From: Bacteroidaceae bacterium
GTDB lineage: Bacteria > Bacteroidota > Bacteroidia > Bacteroidales > Bacteroidaceae
Direction: 5' to 3'
Assembly: GCA_017520935.1 (NCBI GenBank)
Contig: JAFXEF010000001.1
Coordinates: 1 to 64,000, forward strand
DNA length: 64,000 nucleotides
This document shows positions 35,261-60,625 of this stretch, one piece after another. The stretch's first letter is position 1. The number at the start of each line of letters is the position of its first letter. A program made the translations under genes and the position numbers. The notes under the pieces were generated by a model. It was given only the letters and a program-made list of their open reading frames with translations, did not search any database and had not been told where the DNA came from.

Positions 35261-35435
35261 AGTCGTGTCGGTTTAGACTGGGAAACTCATCAATTATATC
35301 TGAAACCGAGGACAGCTTCGACTTCCAATGGCGGGCCACGCCCCGTAAGGGGTAACCTTGAGTCGGTGGATTACAAAGGGGGCGAGCACTCAAATCCTAT
35401 TTCTCGGAGTTTCATCGCATCAATCCGGCACGACT
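35261..35435 (+). ncRNA. ssrS: 6S-like RNA (Bacteroidales-1 motif)
   Basis: The ends pair: 35261-35271 with 35425-35435 (11 bp, one G-U). Inside, GAAACTC (35282-35288) pairs with GAGTTTC (35407-35413), then a one-sided 17-nt bubble leads to CCGAG/CTCGG and an apical region with GGCG-CGCC and CCCCGTAAGGGG hairpins. A long rod with a central bubble is the 6S RNA architecture, which mimics an open promoter to hold RNA polymerase. I recall the Bacteroidales-1 motif as lying downstream of the L20 gene, and later proposed to be 6S RNA. The position fits exactly. The 5' end is uncertain; the best visible -7 element is 170 nt upstream, so processing or an unseen promoter is needed. Confidence 0.75.
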
Positions 35436-35478
35436 TCTTTATATATAAACGCCAAAAGGTATTAATAACGTATTTGCT

Positions 35479-54593: not shown

Positions 54594-54787
54594 ACGTTAC
54601 TTCTTAAGTGTAGGCAAAATTACAAAATACTATTCAAAAAGCCTATAAATTGTAGAATAAAAATTGGAGGAAGAGGCTGCATGAAAGGTCCGCGAGGTCT
54701 TGAGCTACGATAAAAACGAAGCGTAAGTTACGATAAAAGGCAGTGTTCTCTTATGGGAAATATGCAGAGACTATGATATAAAGTAAA

Positions 54788-54871
54788 ATCATAACTTATG
54801 ATTACTTAATCACAACTTATAATTAAGTAATCAGAACTTGTGATTACCTAATCAGAACTTATGATTTGTGT
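54788..54871. repeat. Four 21-bp tandem repeats of the ATCAnAACTTATGATTACTTA type
   Basis: Units start at 54788, 54809, 54830 and 54851. Each contains an imperfect AATCATAAGTT/AACTTATGATT dyad. Same copy number and nearly the same period as the arrays at 20577, 26324 and 26643, with a different sequence. Confidence 0.85.
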
Positions 54872-55020: not shown

Positions 55021-55028
55021 TACTTTTG
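55021..55028 (+). promoter_or_regulatory. -7 element ahead of the structured segment
   Basis: TACTTTTG at 55021-55028 fits TAnnTTTG; an ATTG lies 22 nt upstream (54995-54998). Start predicted near 55033. Confidence 0.5.
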
Positions 55029-55032
55029 CAGT

Positions 55033-55360
55033 ATCTCTACGCCGATACCTTGATTTAGTTGTACGGATTAAGGTGGCAGGGTGGGGATGACATAATGGAA
55101 AAAGCGTTTACTTAGCGCTTGTTTTGACGTGTGGAAATCTGGCAGTTTCAACAATCTTGTCAAAAACAAGGCAACGGTAGATGCCTATGGGTATGTTATA
55201 TCAAAACATTCAGGGTGCTTGCGTGTTGATGCAAGTGCAGTTTGTGCATATTACATATCGGCGTGGGCTTCGGCGTTGCTCGTTTCGACAAGATGGGCGA
55301 TGCCAGAGCCTCTACACGTGGGACGAGTAACAGGTACAGATTCCCACGCTTTTTCTTTTT
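55033..55360 (+). ncRNA. Candidate structured leader or small RNA ending in alternative hairpins
   Basis: CTTGTTTTGAC pairs with GTCAAAAACAAG early on; CTTGC-GCAAG forms a hairpin in the middle. The 3' part has GGCTTCGGCGTTGCTC (55266-55281) pairing with 55295-55310 at 15 of 16 positions including several G-U pairs. CCCACGC (55343-55349), just before a T-run (55350-55360), can pair either with GCGTGGG (55261-55267) or, as CGTGGGA/TCCCACG, with 55317-55323. Two exclusive pairings before a U-run suggest an attenuator or a free small RNA. The string looks familiar to me as a multicopy Bacteroidales intergenic sequence, which I cannot confirm. Confidence 0.5.
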
Positions 55361-55417
55361 AAATAAGGTATTGCCGAGTCTGGGGAGTCTATAGGCTGCA
55401 AAATTCATTTTGGCAGT

Positions 55418-55783
55418 ATGAAGAAGTGTGGGTGCATGTTGATTTTGGCTTTGACGCTAACGTCATGTAGTCCTAATGCCTGGGCCATGTTTTATGACAT
55501 TATGGAACTGACTGGAGGTGTGTTAGGGTTGACTGCAGGGGTGATTGATTTGGTCGATGGCAATAATAGCACATACAGTAGTGGCAGCTATAGTACGCAA
55601 AGGAGTGGACGTTCAAGACAAACCATTGAACGGGAAATAGCTGAATATGAAAAACGCATCGGAGAGTGTGAACGGTACATGGAGAATACAACCAACCCTG
55701 TTACACAAAGGCAGTATATGCAGACCATACAGAACTATAGGAAAATGATACAAGATCGTTACCGAGAGTTGCAAAATCTCTGA
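55418..55783 (+). CDS. Small lipoprotein with coiled coil
   Basis: 121 residues. Lipoprotein signal MKKCGCMLILALTLTSC with lipobox LTSC, a short hydrophobic Gly-rich helix (MELTGGVLGLTAGVIDLV) that could insert in a membrane, a Ser-rich linker, and a coiled coil to the end (REIAEYEKRIGECERYME and QNYRKMIQDRYRELQNL). I do not recognise the family. It is the first gene after the structured segment and 33 nt before the Ig-like lipoprotein, in the same direction as the RiPP genes, so it may belong to their operon. Confidence 0.75.
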   Translation: MKKCGCMLILALTLTSCSPNAWAMFYDIMELTGGVLGLTAGVIDLVDGNNSTYSSGSYSTQRSGRSRQTIEREIAEYEKRIGECERYMENTTNPVTQRQYMQTIQNYRKMIQDRYRELQNL

Positions 55784-55816: not shown

Positions 55817-57538
55817 ATGAAAAAAAAGATTTTTATGCTGATGGCATTGGCATTGTGCTTTACATTCAATGCTTGTGACCCTACTGTTGATCCAATTCCA
55901 GAAGAGGGTGTGGACATTTCGTTGAACAAAGAAGAATTGGTACTTGAAATTGGGCAGAGCGAGAGGCTTGTTGCTGCTTTTGACCCTGTTGATGCTTCTA
56001 ATACAGCCCATACGTGGAGTAGTGGCAACCCAAAGATTGCTTCGGTTGACGAAACGGGCAATGTTACGGGTGTGAGTGTAGGCGAGACAACAGTTGCAGT
56101 CAAAGCTCTGGATGGCGGCAAGATGGCGACATGCCGAGTAACCATCGTTGAGAAGTTTATCTCTGTTACAGGAATCACGCTTGACCAATCGGAATGTACA
56201 ATGATCGAGGGTGACGAATTGGTCTTGGTGGCTACAATCAAGCCATCCAATGCATCGAAGAAAGCGGTCAGTTGGAGTTCCGACAACAAGGAGGTGGCCG
56301 TGGTGAGCACCGAGGGACGCATCACAGCTATAGCCCCGGGTGAAGCAACCATCACTGCAACCACTGAGGATGGTGAGAAGACGGCATCGTGCAAAATTAC
56401 TGTCATTGCGCGTGGAGCAAAAATTTCGGAAGCCGATGTGACAAATATCACATCCAACTCGGCACTTGTTACAGGCCACGTAGAGGTGTCGGGTGTAGAG
56501 GTCTCTGAAGTGGGCCTTTGCTGGGCTACCACACAGAATCCTACCATAGAGAACCAGAGCATCAAGTCTTCATCGAAGCAGGGCGTGATCTATACCATCC
56601 GTAATCTATCGGCCGAAACAACTTATTACGTACGTCTGTACGCGGTTATTGATGGTTCTGTAAAGTATGGTAACCAAAACATCTTCGCCACCCTGCCAGC
56701 TGTTGATTTTGATATCCCCGAGATTTCGGATATCGCAGCCCACTCTACGGTAGTGAATGGTGTTGTTTATGCCAATGGCTCGAAGTTGGATGAAACGGGA
56801 GTGGTATATGGCACAGCCTCTATGCCTACAATAGACAACAACAAGGTGGTAGTTTCTGATGAGAATATCAATTGTTCTATATATGACTTGCTGGCCGATA
56901 CTCGTTACTATGTGCGCTTATATGCTGTGGTAAATGGTCAAAGCTATTATAGTGAAGAGGTGGAGTTTGTGACTAATGAAGAACTGATTGTTAAATTTGC
57001 TCCTACAGACTATTATGAAAACCGACTTATATTGAAAGCGAAAGCCCCCAAAGGATATACAAGTGTGGAGGTATGCTACAATACCAAGCCGAATCCTAAG
57101 ATTACCGATAATACCGCTACGGCTACATTAGATAAGAATGGTGATTTTGTATGGGATTTGACTGGACTCGCTAAGGGTACTACCTATTATATCAGACCTT
57201 ATAGTAGAACTGGGGCGAAGATTGATTATCATGAAGAGGAGGTATCAACAGAAACCTTGGGAGGAACTTATGGCTTTTCAAATGGATCATCATCATACTA
57301 TGGTGACCGTAAACAAAGAATGCATATAGATTACGTATTGCCTCAGGGTACATATATGGTTAGTTATGAGAAGAATGTTTATACTTATGGAGTTAATAAT
57401 ACTGAAACTGGAGAATATAAACAGTCAATCTATATTGATGGAGGGAAAGGTACGTTCTATATAGAGAAAGACCGTTATAATGCTCACGGTGAAGTATATG
57501 TGATGGACATAGAAAGAAATATTATATTTCACTATTAA
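55817..57538 (+). CDS. Ig-like (BIG2) and FN3-like domain lipoprotein
   Basis: 573 residues with signal and lipobox FNAC near residue 19. Two bacterial Ig-like group 2 domains (about 30-115 and 116-200) show VSVGETTVAVKALDGG and IAPGEATITATTEDGEKTASCKI. Three repeats of about 95 residues (200-480) have the FN3-like pattern ADVTNITSNSALVTGHV and SAETTYYVRLYAVIDG. The last 90 residues are Tyr/Gly-rich (GFSNGSSSYYGDRKQRM) and end FHY. It is probably surface exposed and adhesive. It lies 48 nt upstream of the Cys-rich precursor and in the same direction; a direct role with the modified peptide is possible but not shown. The 3' third is AT-rich. Confidence 0.82.
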   Translation: MKKKIFMLMALALCFTFNACDPTVDPIPEEGVDISLNKEELVLEIGQSERLVAAFDPVDASNTAHTWSSGNPKIASVDETGNVTGVSVGETTVAVKALDGGKMATCRVTIVEKFISVTGITLDQSECTMIEGDELVLVATIKPSNASKKAVSWSSDNKEVAVVSTEGRITAIAPGEATITATTEDGEKTASCKITVIARGAKISEADVTNITSNSALVTGHVEVSGVEVSEVGLCWATTQNPTIENQSIKSSSKQGVIYTIRNLSAETTYYVRLYAVIDGSVKYGNQNIFATLPAVDFDIPEISDIAAHSTVVNGVVYANGSKLDETGVVYGTASMPTIDNNKVVVSDENINCSIYDLLADTRYYVRLYAVVNGQSYYSEEVEFVTNEELIVKFAPTDYYENRLILKAKAPKGYTSVEVCYNTKPNPKITDNTATATLDKNGDFVWDLTGLAKGTTYYIRPYSRTGAKIDYHEEEVSTETLGGTYGFSNGSSSYYGDRKQRMHIDYVLPQGTYMVSYEKNVYTYGVNNTETGEYKQSIYIDGGKGTFYIEKDRYNAHGEVYVMDIERNIIFHY

Positions 57539-57586: not shown

Positions 57587-58102
57587 ATGGATCTCGAACG
57601 CAGAAAATTCTTTAAGACGGTAGTGACCAAGGTACTACCGATTTTAGGCACCATAGTTGTTGCTCCCAACCTGTTATCCTCCTGTTGTCCCGATGACCTT
57701 GTATTAGGTTGTGGCAATAGTTGTATGGGAACGGCACAAAGTGGTTGTGGAACTTCGTGTAGCAGTTCATGTGTAGGTACAGCTCAAGGTGGATGTGGTA
57801 GCAGTTGCCAATCCTCATGCTCGGGCTCGTGCAGTGAAGGTTGTGAGGGGAGTGCCAAGGCTGCTGGATGTGATGGATGTGCAGCATCGTGCAACAGCTC
57901 GTGCTCTGAATCATCCACCGCTGCTGCTTGTTCAGGATGTGGCAACAGTTGTAATCGGGCTTGTGCACAATCATGTCTATCGACTTGCCGGAACACTTGT
58001 GATGTCACTTGTCAGTTGTCGTGTAAAACGACCTGTAGAGATGGATGCTATCAGGGTTGCTTAGGAACTTGTAAAGGTTACTGTACAATCTTAAACGATT
58101 AG
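57587..58102 (+). CDS. Cys-rich CXXX-repeat RiPP precursor
   Basis: 171 residues, 30 Cys. Residues 1-32 are a leader: ERRKFFK (twin-arginine-like), a hydrophobic stretch and LSSC, a lipobox ending at Cys33. From residue 42 to 166, 26 Cys fall at positions equal to 2 modulo 4; Cys118 to Cys166 is an unbroken run of 13 at every fourth residue. Only Cys33, 34, 95 and 115 are off register. The third X of nearly every unit is Ser, Thr, Gly or Ala. The register gaps at 50 and 66 lie in the repeated GTAQ-G motif. Gene order (stop 4 nt before a radical SAM gene) marks it as substrate of the downstream enzymes. Expected modification is Cys-based cross-linking; the product is unknown. Confidence 0.9.
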   Translation: MDLERRKFFKTVVTKVLPILGTIVVAPNLLSSCCPDDLVLGCGNSCMGTAQSGCGTSCSSSCVGTAQGGCGSSCQSSCSGSCSEGCEGSAKAAGCDGCAASCNSSCSESSTAAACSGCGNSCNRACAQSCLSTCRNTCDVTCQLSCKTTCRDGCYQGCLGTCKGYCTILND

Positions 58103-58106
58103 GCTG

Positions 58107-59360
58107 ATGGCACAATATAAAAGCAACACCAAAGACTGGCAGTCTGGAATGGCGAAAAGCATCACCTTTATCGTTACTAAGGACTGCCAGCTTGCCTGCA
58201 AATATTGTTATCTTGTAGGCAAGAACACGAAAGAGCGCATGCCGTGGGAAATCGCCAAGCAGGCGATAGACTATATCCTCAGTCATGAAAAGGATTTCAA
58301 GGAAGAGTCTGTGATTTGGGACTTCATCGGTGGCGAACCCTTCTTGGAGATAGATTTAATAGACCGTATCTGTGACTACCTGAAAGTAGAAATGTATAGG
58401 AGAAATCATCATTGGTTCGACTCCTACCGCTTCAGTCTCTCCACCAATGGTATCAATTACCATACGGAGAAGGTACAGAACTTTATAGAGAAGAACCGCA
58501 GCCACTTGAGCATAGGCATTACGATTGATGGCACAAAACGGAAGCATGATCTTAACCGTATATGGAAGACTCCAGAGATGGAACGGGGCATTACCCCCAA
58601 CAACCCATCGGAAGAGCGGGGTTCGTATGACGATGTGGTACGTAATATTCCATTATGGTTGCAGCAATTTCCTGGTGGGTATACAAAGGTGACAGTCAGC
58701 AGTGCCGACATACCTTATATAAAGGAGAGTGTACTGCACTTATTTAGTCTTGGCATTCATGAAGTCAATATCAATTGTGTGTTTGAGGATGTATGGAACG
58801 AGGGGGATGACAAACTCTTTGAGGAACAGTTGATGGAACTGGCCGATGCTATTATCGACAATAACCTATACAAGGAGAATGCATGCTCGTTCTTTGTAGA
58901 CCATATAGGAAAGCCTTTGGACTGCACCTTGCAGAATCAGAACTGGTGTGGAGCAGGAAGAATGTTATCAATTGATACAGCAGGCAACTTTTATCCTTGC
59001 ACACGCTTTGCGCAGTATTCACTTCGCAACAAGCAGGCATGGATTATAGGTAATATTCATGATGGTATCGATAAGAACAAGTTGCGTCCGTTCCTCACGC
59101 TAGACCGTTGTACCCAGAGCACACAGGTATGTATTGACTGTGAGGTGACAAGCGGTTGCGCTTGGTGTCAAGGCGAGAACTATGATGCAGCTGATACTCC
59201 TACGGTATACCAAAGAACTACGGCAATCTGCAAAATGCATAAGGCGCGTGTAAGGGCCAACAATTATTATTGGAACAAACTGTTCCGAAAGTTAGAGTTG
59301 GAAGGTGAGCGCGAAGCCTATGAGAAAAACAAACGTGAGTCTAACGTAAGCAACTGTTGA
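58107..59360 (+). CDS. Radical SAM/SPASM peptide maturase, CXXX-repeat target type
   Basis: 417 residues. CX3CX2C at Cys27, Cys31 and Cys34 (FIVTKDCQLACKYCYLVG) binds the radical SAM [4Fe-4S] cluster; IWDFIGGEPFLE is the GGE SAM-contact motif. The C-terminal third is SPASM-like with WCGAGRMLSIDTAGNFYPC, then CTQSTQVCIDC and TSGCAWC, enough Cys for two auxiliary clusters. I recall a family named 'radical SAM peptide maturase, CXXX-repeat target' (TIGR04115); the fit is strong by context. It probably abstracts hydrogen from the precursor to form thioether links. It sits 4 nt downstream of the precursor and 4 nt upstream of the next maturase. Confidence 0.92.
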   Translation: MAQYKSNTKDWQSGMAKSITFIVTKDCQLACKYCYLVGKNTKERMPWEIAKQAIDYILSHEKDFKEESVIWDFIGGEPFLEIDLIDRICDYLKVEMYRRNHHWFDSYRFSLSTNGINYHTEKVQNFIEKNRSHLSIGITIDGTKRKHDLNRIWKTPEMERGITPNNPSEERGSYDDVVRNIPLWLQQFPGGYTKVTVSSADIPYIKESVLHLFSLGIHEVNINCVFEDVWNEGDDKLFEEQLMELADAIIDNNLYKENACSFFVDHIGKPLDCTLQNQNWCGAGRMLSIDTAGNFYPCTRFAQYSLRNKQAWIIGNIHDGIDKNKLRPFLTLDRCTQSTQVCIDCEVTSGCAWCQGENYDAADTPTVYQRTTAICKMHKARVRANNYYWNKLFRKLELEGEREAYEKNKRESNVSNC

Positions 59361-59364
59361 TACG

Positions 59365-60333
59365 ATGCTGAAATATCTTATAATACAATTGGACGATACA
59401 AGTACATCGTATTGCCATTACGGAAATCTTAGGAAAGATCACAGACTTATCTCGTTGGAGAATCTGAAAGCTGTTATTCTTTTTGCTATGAAAGAGAACC
59501 TGACAGTTCAGTTCGTATATCCGAAGTATGAGTTACCGGAAGAATACAAGGAGGCTATCCGTAGTATCGACCATAGCAAGATAGTTCCTATGGGAAGTAA
59601 GGAGAAAGGCGATGTAGTGGTCCTTGAAGGATGGGAAGAATTAGATGGATGTTCGTTGCTTCCCGACATAGCCTATGTGCTTCGTACAGGAAAAAAGGAA
59701 CTATTCGACAATTATACGCAGATACCTGATATATTACCCAGAGTCGCTCGTTTGAATGTGGTGATTACAGATGTAGAAACTTTCGAAGAGAAGGATTTCT
59801 TTACGTATAAAAAAGTGCTGGCCACGTTATCAAAAGAAGTTGAATCGCTTTATGCAAAAGGTTTGTCGCCTCAATTGAATTTGTTGACCGACCGTATGAT
59901 GTTGGATGGGATGAACAACTGCAATGCAGGTTGGGAGAGTATTACACTTGCTCCTGATGGAAGGTTCTATGTCTGTCCTGCTTTTTATTTGGCTGATGAG
60001 GATGAAGACTATGGTTTGGGCAAATCGAAGTATTCAATTGGGGATTTGGAGAATGGGTTGGATATAAAGAATCCTCAACTCTATAAGTTGTCCCACGCTC
60101 CGCTGTGTCGTAACTGTGATGCTTACCAATGTAAACGTTGTGTATGGCTCAATCGTAAGATGACGTATGAGGTAAATACGCCCAGTCACGAGCAGTGTAT
60201 GATGGCTCACTTGGAACGCAACGCAAGTCGTGAGTTGCTGATGGCTATACGCAAACATGGCACGTTCTTGCCGGGAATGGATATAAAGGAAATCTCGTAT
60301 CTCGATCCCTTTGATGTGAGAAAGGAATGGTAA
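59365..60333 (+). CDS. CXXX-repeat peptide maturase, SPASM-like without radical SAM motif
   Basis: 322 residues. There is no CX3CX2C anywhere, so it is not itself a radical SAM enzyme. The first 190 residues (LKYLIIQLDDTSTSYCHYG, a SLENLKAVILFAMKENLTVQF helix) look like a reduced partial barrel. The C-terminal 120 residues repeat the partner's cluster domain: CNAGWESITLAPDGRFYVCP, then APLCRNCDAYQCKRCVWLNR and PSHEQC. This matches my memory of the 'CXXX repeat peptide maturase' family (TIGR04119). It may bind iron-sulfur clusters and act as a partner or scaffold for the radical SAM enzyme. It starts 4 nt after that gene; its AT-richness differs from core genes. Confidence 0.88.
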   Translation: MLKYLIIQLDDTSTSYCHYGNLRKDHRLISLENLKAVILFAMKENLTVQFVYPKYELPEEYKEAIRSIDHSKIVPMGSKEKGDVVVLEGWEELDGCSLLPDIAYVLRTGKKELFDNYTQIPDILPRVARLNVVITDVETFEEKDFFTYKKVLATLSKEVESLYAKGLSPQLNLLTDRMMLDGMNNCNAGWESITLAPDGRFYVCPAFYLADEDEDYGLGKSKYSIGDLENGLDIKNPQLYKLSHAPLCRNCDAYQCKRCVWLNRKMTYEVNTPSHEQCMMAHLERNASRELLMAIRKHGTFLPGMDIKEISYLDPFDVRKEW

Positions 60334-60355
60334 ATCAATAAATACATTAATATAT

Positions 60356-60625
60356 ATGGAAAAGAAAGTGGTAGGCTCAGTAACCGAGTCGGAGAAAAAT
60401 GAGATTCAATCGCTGTTTGAACGCAGAAACGGTTTAAATGAATTAGCAAAGATTGTAACTGCGGATAATGATGCATTGTACGAAAGGTTGTTAAAGGATA
60501 TGAGCGAAACAGCTGCCAAATTTCAAGGCTGGTGGAATCGTATGGCTCAAAAGTATCAATGGGAGAGTACTCCCGAGGGAAACTGGGAGATAAACTTCGA
60601 TACTTGCGAAATATATCTAATGTAG
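60356..60625 (+). CDS. CXXX-repeat peptide modification system protein
   Basis: 89 residues, EKKVVGSVTESEKNEIQSLFERRNGLNELAKI then LYERLLKDMSETAAKFQGWWNRMAQKY: all helical, with a WW pair, no Cys in the helical part (one near the end). Small helical proteins of this kind close such clusters; I recall the family name 'CXXX repeat peptide modification system protein' (TIGR04116). It could bind the precursor leader or bridge the enzymes. It lies 22 nt after the maturase and is the last gene of the operon. Confidence 0.82.
   Translation: MEKKVVGSVTESEKNEIQSLFERRNGLNELAKIVTADNDALYERLLKDMSETAAKFQGWWNRMAQKYQWESTPEGNWEINFDTCEIYLM

Follow-up and report, generated by a model that had tools for sequence, protein, structure and literature searches.

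A 64,000-nt stretch of DNA from a Bacteroidaceae bacterium, here called the window, carries a noncoding segment at 55259-55417, directly before a RiPP locus, in which the initial annotation had noticed two mutually exclusive hairpins ending at a run of Ts. Does this segment control the genes from 55418 onward, as an attenuator or riboswitch would, or is it a free-standing small RNA with its own terminator? We found that the segment is the 3' end of a longer leader, which runs from downstream of a box at 55021-55028 to the start codon at 55418 (all leader and operon features described here lie on the + strand). The box, TACTTTTG, has the form TAnnTTTG, which we take to be the Bacteroidota-type promoter motif. 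It occurs in the same place in 162 of 187 homologues, compared with 13 of 187 after shuffling of the upstream sequence, and would place the transcript start at about 55033-55036. Judged from its sequence, 55029-55417 is most likely the untranslated leader of an operon that starts at 55418 and encodes a lipoprotein, an Ig-like protein, and CXXX-repeat RiPP genes.

The first gene of this operon (55418-55783) encodes a small predicted lipoprotein, for which no family was matched in Pfam or NCBIfam. It is followed by a gene for a secreted protein with Big_2 and fibronectin-like domains (55817-57538) and by the CXXX-repeat RiPP genes (57587-60625), comprising a Cys-rich RiPP precursor (57587-58102), a radical SAM maturase of family TIGR04115 (58107-59360), a maturase of family TIGR04119 (59365-60333), and a member of TIGR04116 (60356-60625). 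The precursor matches TIGR04117 below the cutoff (30.2 vs 50 bits), yet all three maturation families come next. Several near-palindromic repeats like TGATTACTTAATCA were seen by eye at 54775-54870, 5' of the leader promoter, and elsewhere in the window positions 35261-35441 match the Bacteroidales-1 RNA (suggested 6S RNA) with 136 bits. A conserved leader peptide, starting at the ATG in GACATAATGGAA, was considered and dropped after reading by eye because frame and start vary among the copies.

Both of the competing hairpins are present. CCCACGC (55343-55349) adjoins the T-run at 55350-55360, which by sequence and alignments would be the U-run of an intrinsic terminator, and can pair with GCGTGGG at 55261-55267, 75 nt upstream; this helix, P1, is 98.7% paired with double changes at 3 of 7 pairs. 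Shifted in register by one base, TCCCACG (55342-55348) can instead pair with CGTGGGA (55317-55323) across an 18-nt loop, forming the putative terminator hairpin T (55317-55348), which shows covariation. The initial annotation had further described a 16-bp, G-U-rich helix between these strands. The helix exists and contains several G-U pairs, but it has 14 uninterrupted pairs (55272-55285 with 55291-55304) rather than 16, with an additional 5-bp extension beyond a mismatch in the centroid structure; homologues conserve only its 8-9 bp core, and its G-U richness is partly private to the window copy. The corresponding hairpin, H1 (55272-55304), has its conserved part at 55272-55279 and 55297-55304. 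A further helix, PK (55275-55286 with 55320-55331), is 97.8% paired with double changes at 4 of 12 pairs, and it rules out both H1 and the terminator 5' strand, with which it shares segments. The segment 55250-55361 is predicted to fold more stably than any of 200 shuffled versions (z = -4.2), as is the whole of 55034-55361 compared with 100 shuffles (z = -8.2). The hairpins seen initially amount to about one-third of the structure: helices of two kinds, hypervariable and conserved, join the 5' half of the leader (55034-55176) to the 3' half.

The homologues that reveal these helices are numerous. A DNA search of the source genome gave 23 matches at E ≤ 1, and a covariance model of the 3' domain, R1, built from 12 source-genome copies, found 15 strong matches there. 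At E ≤ 0.001, R1 is present in 22 of 61 relatives, the source genome counted, with 0 to 9 copies in each of the other genomes and a few matches in other families of the order; at E ≤ 1e-4 the family was absent from all 98 genomes sampled evenly across the remainder of the phylum. A scan of species genomes for an exact pattern, which favours the conserved core, yielded at least 116 stretches among the matches listed. These matches come from Prevotella, Segatella copri, Bacteroides, Phocaeicola, Parabacteroides, Mediterranea, Palleniella, Xylanibacter, and Leyella, and also from Muribaculaceae, Paludibacteraceae, and Tidjanibacter; two that are labelled as Firmicutes or Roseburia MAGs are probably mis-binned. 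Rfam 15 gave no match to the window sequence at the gathering threshold, and up to E = 5 only a chance-level match to SR6. The family had no match in the plasmid collection, one 44-nt match in the phage collection, and two stretches in viral contigs, so that phages and plasmids are not its main habitat as far as the searched collections go. A search of mainly open-access journal literature found no description of it. By sequence and structure, the leader belongs to a multi-copy family of Bacteroidales leader RNAs that had not been filed before.

For comparative analysis, nhmmer matches above E 1e-3 or partial were discarded, and copies identical in the 3' domain plus 150 nt upstream were collapsed, reducing 239 matches to 199 distinct copies, 187 of them with enough upstream sequence. 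In the source genome, C36 and C48 became one copy by this step, and C57, at the end of a contig, fell outside the 187 used for pair tests. C36 and C48 (L011 and L010 of genome G000) have identical leaders and flanks on two contigs, by duplication or assembly artefact. Another source-genome copy, L009, keeps the 5' half and then continues into unrelated sequence, as a truncated element. L006 and L064, from genomes of different species (G000 and G014), do not differ anywhere in the 3' domain or the 150 nt before it, which suggests recent transfer. A DNA-level repeat or mobile element was considered as an alternative identity for the family; a leader agrees better with the structure and the linkage to genes, even if the L006/L064 identity does suggest transfer.

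We measured covariation by MI/APC, with no structure supplied, in 124 of the 187 copies (those with the promoter box and below 93% identity). The top-ranked signals were three long-range helices joining the two halves of the leader: tag 1, tag 2, and, between them, a more conserved core. The core pairs TCTGGCA (55138-55144) with 55301-55307 and is 97.9% paired, with double changes at 5 of 7 pairs. Tag 1 pairs ACGTGTGG (55127-55134) with CTACACGT (55312-55319), is 97% paired, and has up to five standard pair types per position; tag 2 pairs ATCTTGTC (55154-55161) with GACAAGAT (55287-55294) and is 91.9% paired, with double changes at 7 of 7 pairs. The tag 2 partner lies in the loop of H1, and the 5' strands of tag 1, core, and tag 2 are displayed by the loop of another hairpin, P2 (55118-55170; 55118-55128 with 55159-55170, 88.4% paired, double changes at 7 of 10 pairs). 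Next to P2, GCAACG (55171-55176) can pair with CGTTGC (55274-55279; 92.2% paired, few changes), a strand also used by H1 and PK, so that GTTGC has three partners. Upstream, AAAAAGCGT (55099-55107) pairs with ACGCTTTTT (55346-55354), that is, with the terminator base and U-run; this helix, A1, is 94.6% paired with double changes at 2 of 9 pairs, and we propose that it is the antiterminator. At the 5' end, P0 pairs CTACGCCGA (55037-55045) with 55258-55266, overlapping the P1 5' strand (84.6% paired, double changes at 3 of 9 pairs). Together, tag 1, tag 2, core, GCAAC/GTTGC, and A1 form one long rod, the minimum-energy fold of the window copy, and the same segments also serve P2, H1, PK, P1, and T.

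Comparing each copy's own strands with permuted partners, the proportion of paired cells was 92.4% vs 64.1% for tag 1, 85.1% vs 58.5% for tag 2, and 98.6% vs 87.5% for the core, and 97.5% vs 94.3% for PK, 90.7% vs 85.7% for T, 96.4% vs 94.2% for P1, and 95.9% vs 94.8% for A1; P0 was the weakest helix, at 86.6% vs 84.3%. Covariation of P0, A1, GCAAC/GTTGC, and H1 is barely above the permuted controls because they are conserved. In a tool alignment that kept 34 diverse copies of 75 candidates, the long-range set had 92.5% paired cells compared with 80.2% after shuffling and 217 double-changed cells compared with 66, the local set had 89.3% vs 86.3% paired cells, and the P1 plus PK set had 98.1% vs 95.8%. 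No helix set was equalled, in paired cells or in covariation score, by any of 500 shuffles or by its slid versions, which reached 33-55% paired cells. A lack of covariation among homologues had been named at the outset as one result that would speak against competing folds. The alignments instead indicate that several mutually exclusive helix sets, including both original hairpins, are kept by covariation. Predicted energies for the window copy are -128.3 kcal/mol for the rod, -121.9 for the local terminator, and -114.2 for PK plus P1. The three folds would thus span about 14 kcal/mol, a closeness that a switch requires, though energies of this kind cannot tell which forms co-transcriptionally.

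The tag 1 and tag 2 helices are hypervariable between copies and complementary inside each copy. In the source genome, the cognate tag 1 helix is the best in its row and column for 13 of 13 copies (its helix score averages 20.2, that of other partners 10.0), and the cognate arm duplex is likewise predicted to be best for 13 of 13 (-41.4 vs -22.4 kcal/mol); across genomes with at least three copies it is best in 79 of 82. Searching the entire 5' region blindly for the partner of tag 1 separated cognate from non-cognate poorly, with 18 of 187 copies above the 99th percentile, and position-specific tests were therefore used; only these made the separation. In two pairs of near-identical copies (L205/L206 and L244/L223), tag 1 has changed on both strands and most of the remaining element is kept. 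Once exact duplicates had been collapsed, tag 1 was identical in none of 310 within-genome pairs, compared with 103 of 17,081 between-genome pairs, and at core identity of at least 0.9 in none of 22 compared with 42 of 278, counts in which the pairs are not fully independent.

Such divergence need not reflect selection for specificity. The tags could have arisen by neutral compensatory drift, or gene conversion could have homogenised the rest of the leader. Because the tags serve one helix, they may drift where segments shared by several helices cannot; being paired in one fold only, they are freer to change than those segments. When all independent pairs were mixed, tag 1 did not differ significantly from an unpaired spacer (less alike in 32, against 20; p = 0.13). 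After seeing this result we split the pairs by genome. Of 26 independent pairs inside one genome, 23 have tag 1 diverging more than the spacer; of 56 pairs between genomes, near-identical ones dropped, 31 do, which leaves tag 1 not clearly the less similar of the two there (within against between: Fisher's test, p = 0.003; rank test, p = 0.0004). In a previous split, for which fewer loci had been placed in a genome, the count was 18 of 18. Mean within-genome identity is 0.42 for tag 1, 0.54 for tag 2, and 0.73 for the spacer. Gene conversion over short tracts could make spacer and core alike and so mimic part of the within-genome difference. The within-genome excess and the complete lack of a shared tag 1 among co-resident copies, also at high core identity, count against drift or conversion as the source of the tags, which we regard as possible but doubtful.

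We then considered how the leaders relate to the genes that follow. With the next ORF chosen by a crude longest-ORF rule, it lies on the same strand in 176 of the 184 distinct copies (among 199) that have at least 500 nt downstream, and its ATG typically follows the U-run by 70 nt (median; interquartile range 62-99); the start codon of the window copy is about 60 nt beyond the U-run. This supports the proposal that the genes from 55418 are controlled. The 151 non-redundant downstream proteins are very diverse and have no common function. A crude rule assigns a hydrophobic or lipoprotein-like start to 89 of them, 16 of which are BspA-type repeat proteins, and the other 62 include type II and III methylases, DndC-, SspB-, and BrxP-like proteins, DUF4007 proteins, and kinases. 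They look like accessory genes.

The spacer between U-run and start codon contains a short stretch complementary to the 3' side of the terminator, often in the loop of a small hairpin (GGAGCC, GGAGTC, or similar). In the window copy this element D is GGGGAGTCTATAGGC (55382-55396), within which GGGAGTCT is complementary to AGATTCCC at 55338-55345; corresponding pairs in other copies are AGGTTCTC / GAGAATCT, ACTGGCTTC / GAGGCCGGT, and GTAGCTCCC / GGGAGCTAT. The terminator 3' strand thus has four pairings: T, P1, A1, and element D. Complementarity exceeds the 95th percentile of shuffled spacers in 71 of 132 copies and that of non-cognate spacers in only 28 of 132, since the sequences are common within subfamilies. 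Judged by this complementarity, element D ties the predicted terminator to the gene. Six of the 199 copies, in different genomes (L003, L111, L134, L155, L160, and L244), lack a U-run and end in CACG(C/T)..TTGAACC or similar. Apart from L244 they have a common tail that contains ATACCATAAAGTT(C/A)CC about 90 nt further on, and in L111 and L160 a convergent HTH-like gene faces the copy. These copies may represent a stand-alone variant, or else mark a recombination junction.

The linkage to genes bears on three other explanations of the leader. It could be a free-standing regulatory RNA of about 320 nt that acts in trans and has an incidental downstream gene. Such an RNA would have its own promoter and terminator, as this one appears to, and might account for the copies ending in TTGAACC and for the first downstream ORF lying on the opposite strand in L111, L160, and L244. 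An incidental neighbour would hardly stand so regularly on the same strand, mostly at a narrow distance, behind a spacer with a conserved complement to the terminator, and we consider a free-standing RNA, which the initial annotation had offered as an alternative, to be quite improbable as the main reading. A metabolite riboswitch fares worse still. Competition at the terminator resembles an expression platform, and the attenuator half of the original proposal finds support; nothing points to a metabolite, because genes for BspA-like surface proteins, restriction, phosphorothioation, a RiPP, and a kinase have no common pathway, and the key helices are hypervariable in an element that Rfam does not match. 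We would be very surprised if this were a riboswitch.

Lack of a common pathway is less of a difficulty for a leader bound by a protein, such as an RNA-binding or NusG-like factor, that controls processive antitermination or translation, with the alternative folds serving as architecture. A large conserved structure before unrelated genes is what one would expect of a general factor, and element D, being close to the start codon, might have a part in translation. By itself, a bound protein leaves the conserved exclusive pairing of the terminator strands and the private tags unexplained, and we think this reading unlikely.

The reading we favour, and hold to be probable on the evidence of its sequence and alignments, is that the leader attenuates transcription, with read-through governed by long-range self-pairing via the private tags. 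The leader has a promoter box, a terminator-like hairpin with a U-run before the gene, and exclusive helix sets. If the 3' domain folds on itself, as H1 plus T or as PK plus P1, a stem would abut the U-run and RNA polymerase would stop, leaving an RNA of about 320 nt. If the 5' and 3' arms join through tag 1, core, tag 2, and GCAAC/GTTGC instead, A1 would capture the terminator base and U-run, and transcription would read into the operon. The two copy-private tags would make the arms choose their own partner, and the likeliest inputs to tip the balance would be a protein or the terminated RNA itself. We infer which fold stops and which reads through from the pairings, and P1 could instead belong to the antiterminator. 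Against attenuation stand the six copies without a U-run, and element D, transcribed after the U-run, has no place in the simple model.

Co-resident copies avoid equal tags, which suggests that the leaders meet in trans. We therefore also entertain, as a speculative extension that is rather unlikely to hold in full, that the leaders are orthogonal, self-recognising RNA switches: once terminated, a leader would act in trans on those still being transcribed from its own locus, the tags would be addresses diverging in a shared cell, and a dozen accessory genes could be set independently, possibly with memory. If so, the tags would prevent cross-reaction in trans between sibling RNA switches.

Attenuator leaders with intrinsic terminators place a promoter, a structured leader, a terminator, and a competing antiterminator before an operon, and the window leader has the same layout. 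The leaders of its family differ in being much longer, in preceding very diverse genes, in having copy-specific complementary tags, and in the conserved post-terminator element. In plasmid copy-number antisense systems (CopA/CopT, ColE1 RNAI/RNAII, and attenuation by pIP501 RNAIII), variable complementary segments decide RNA recognition. The tags resemble these variable segments, and attenuation would be an outcome in both; here, in contrast, both complementary segments lie on the same transcript, and the family is chromosomal and multi-copy. EAR, LoaP, and UpxY are processive antitermination systems. A leader whose structure carries polymerase past terminators would suit operons of diverse kinds, but the window leader matches no Rfam family at gathering score. 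The passages of PMC11697453 consulted describe FopS and GibS of Bacteroides as paralogous sRNAs, FopS being trans-acting, about 65-70 nt long, and characterised by an R1 seed. On that description, they resemble our family as multi-copy Bacteroidaceae RNAs with canonical promoters, and FopS differs in length from a leader of about 330 nt. Structured RNAs of human microbiomes have been predicted (PMC8040213), and the passage of that work consulted names none like this leader.

The further copies that the initial annotation had proposed to look for thus exist, before genes of many kinds. If our reading is right, many gut Bacteroidales control accessory genes, among them genes for surface proteins, anti-phage systems, and peptide natural products, through a large RNA family that had not been filed. 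The family would exemplify how a single RNA device is multiplied in a genome without cross-talk, and would offer a natural set of paired specificity tags for direct tests of that idea.
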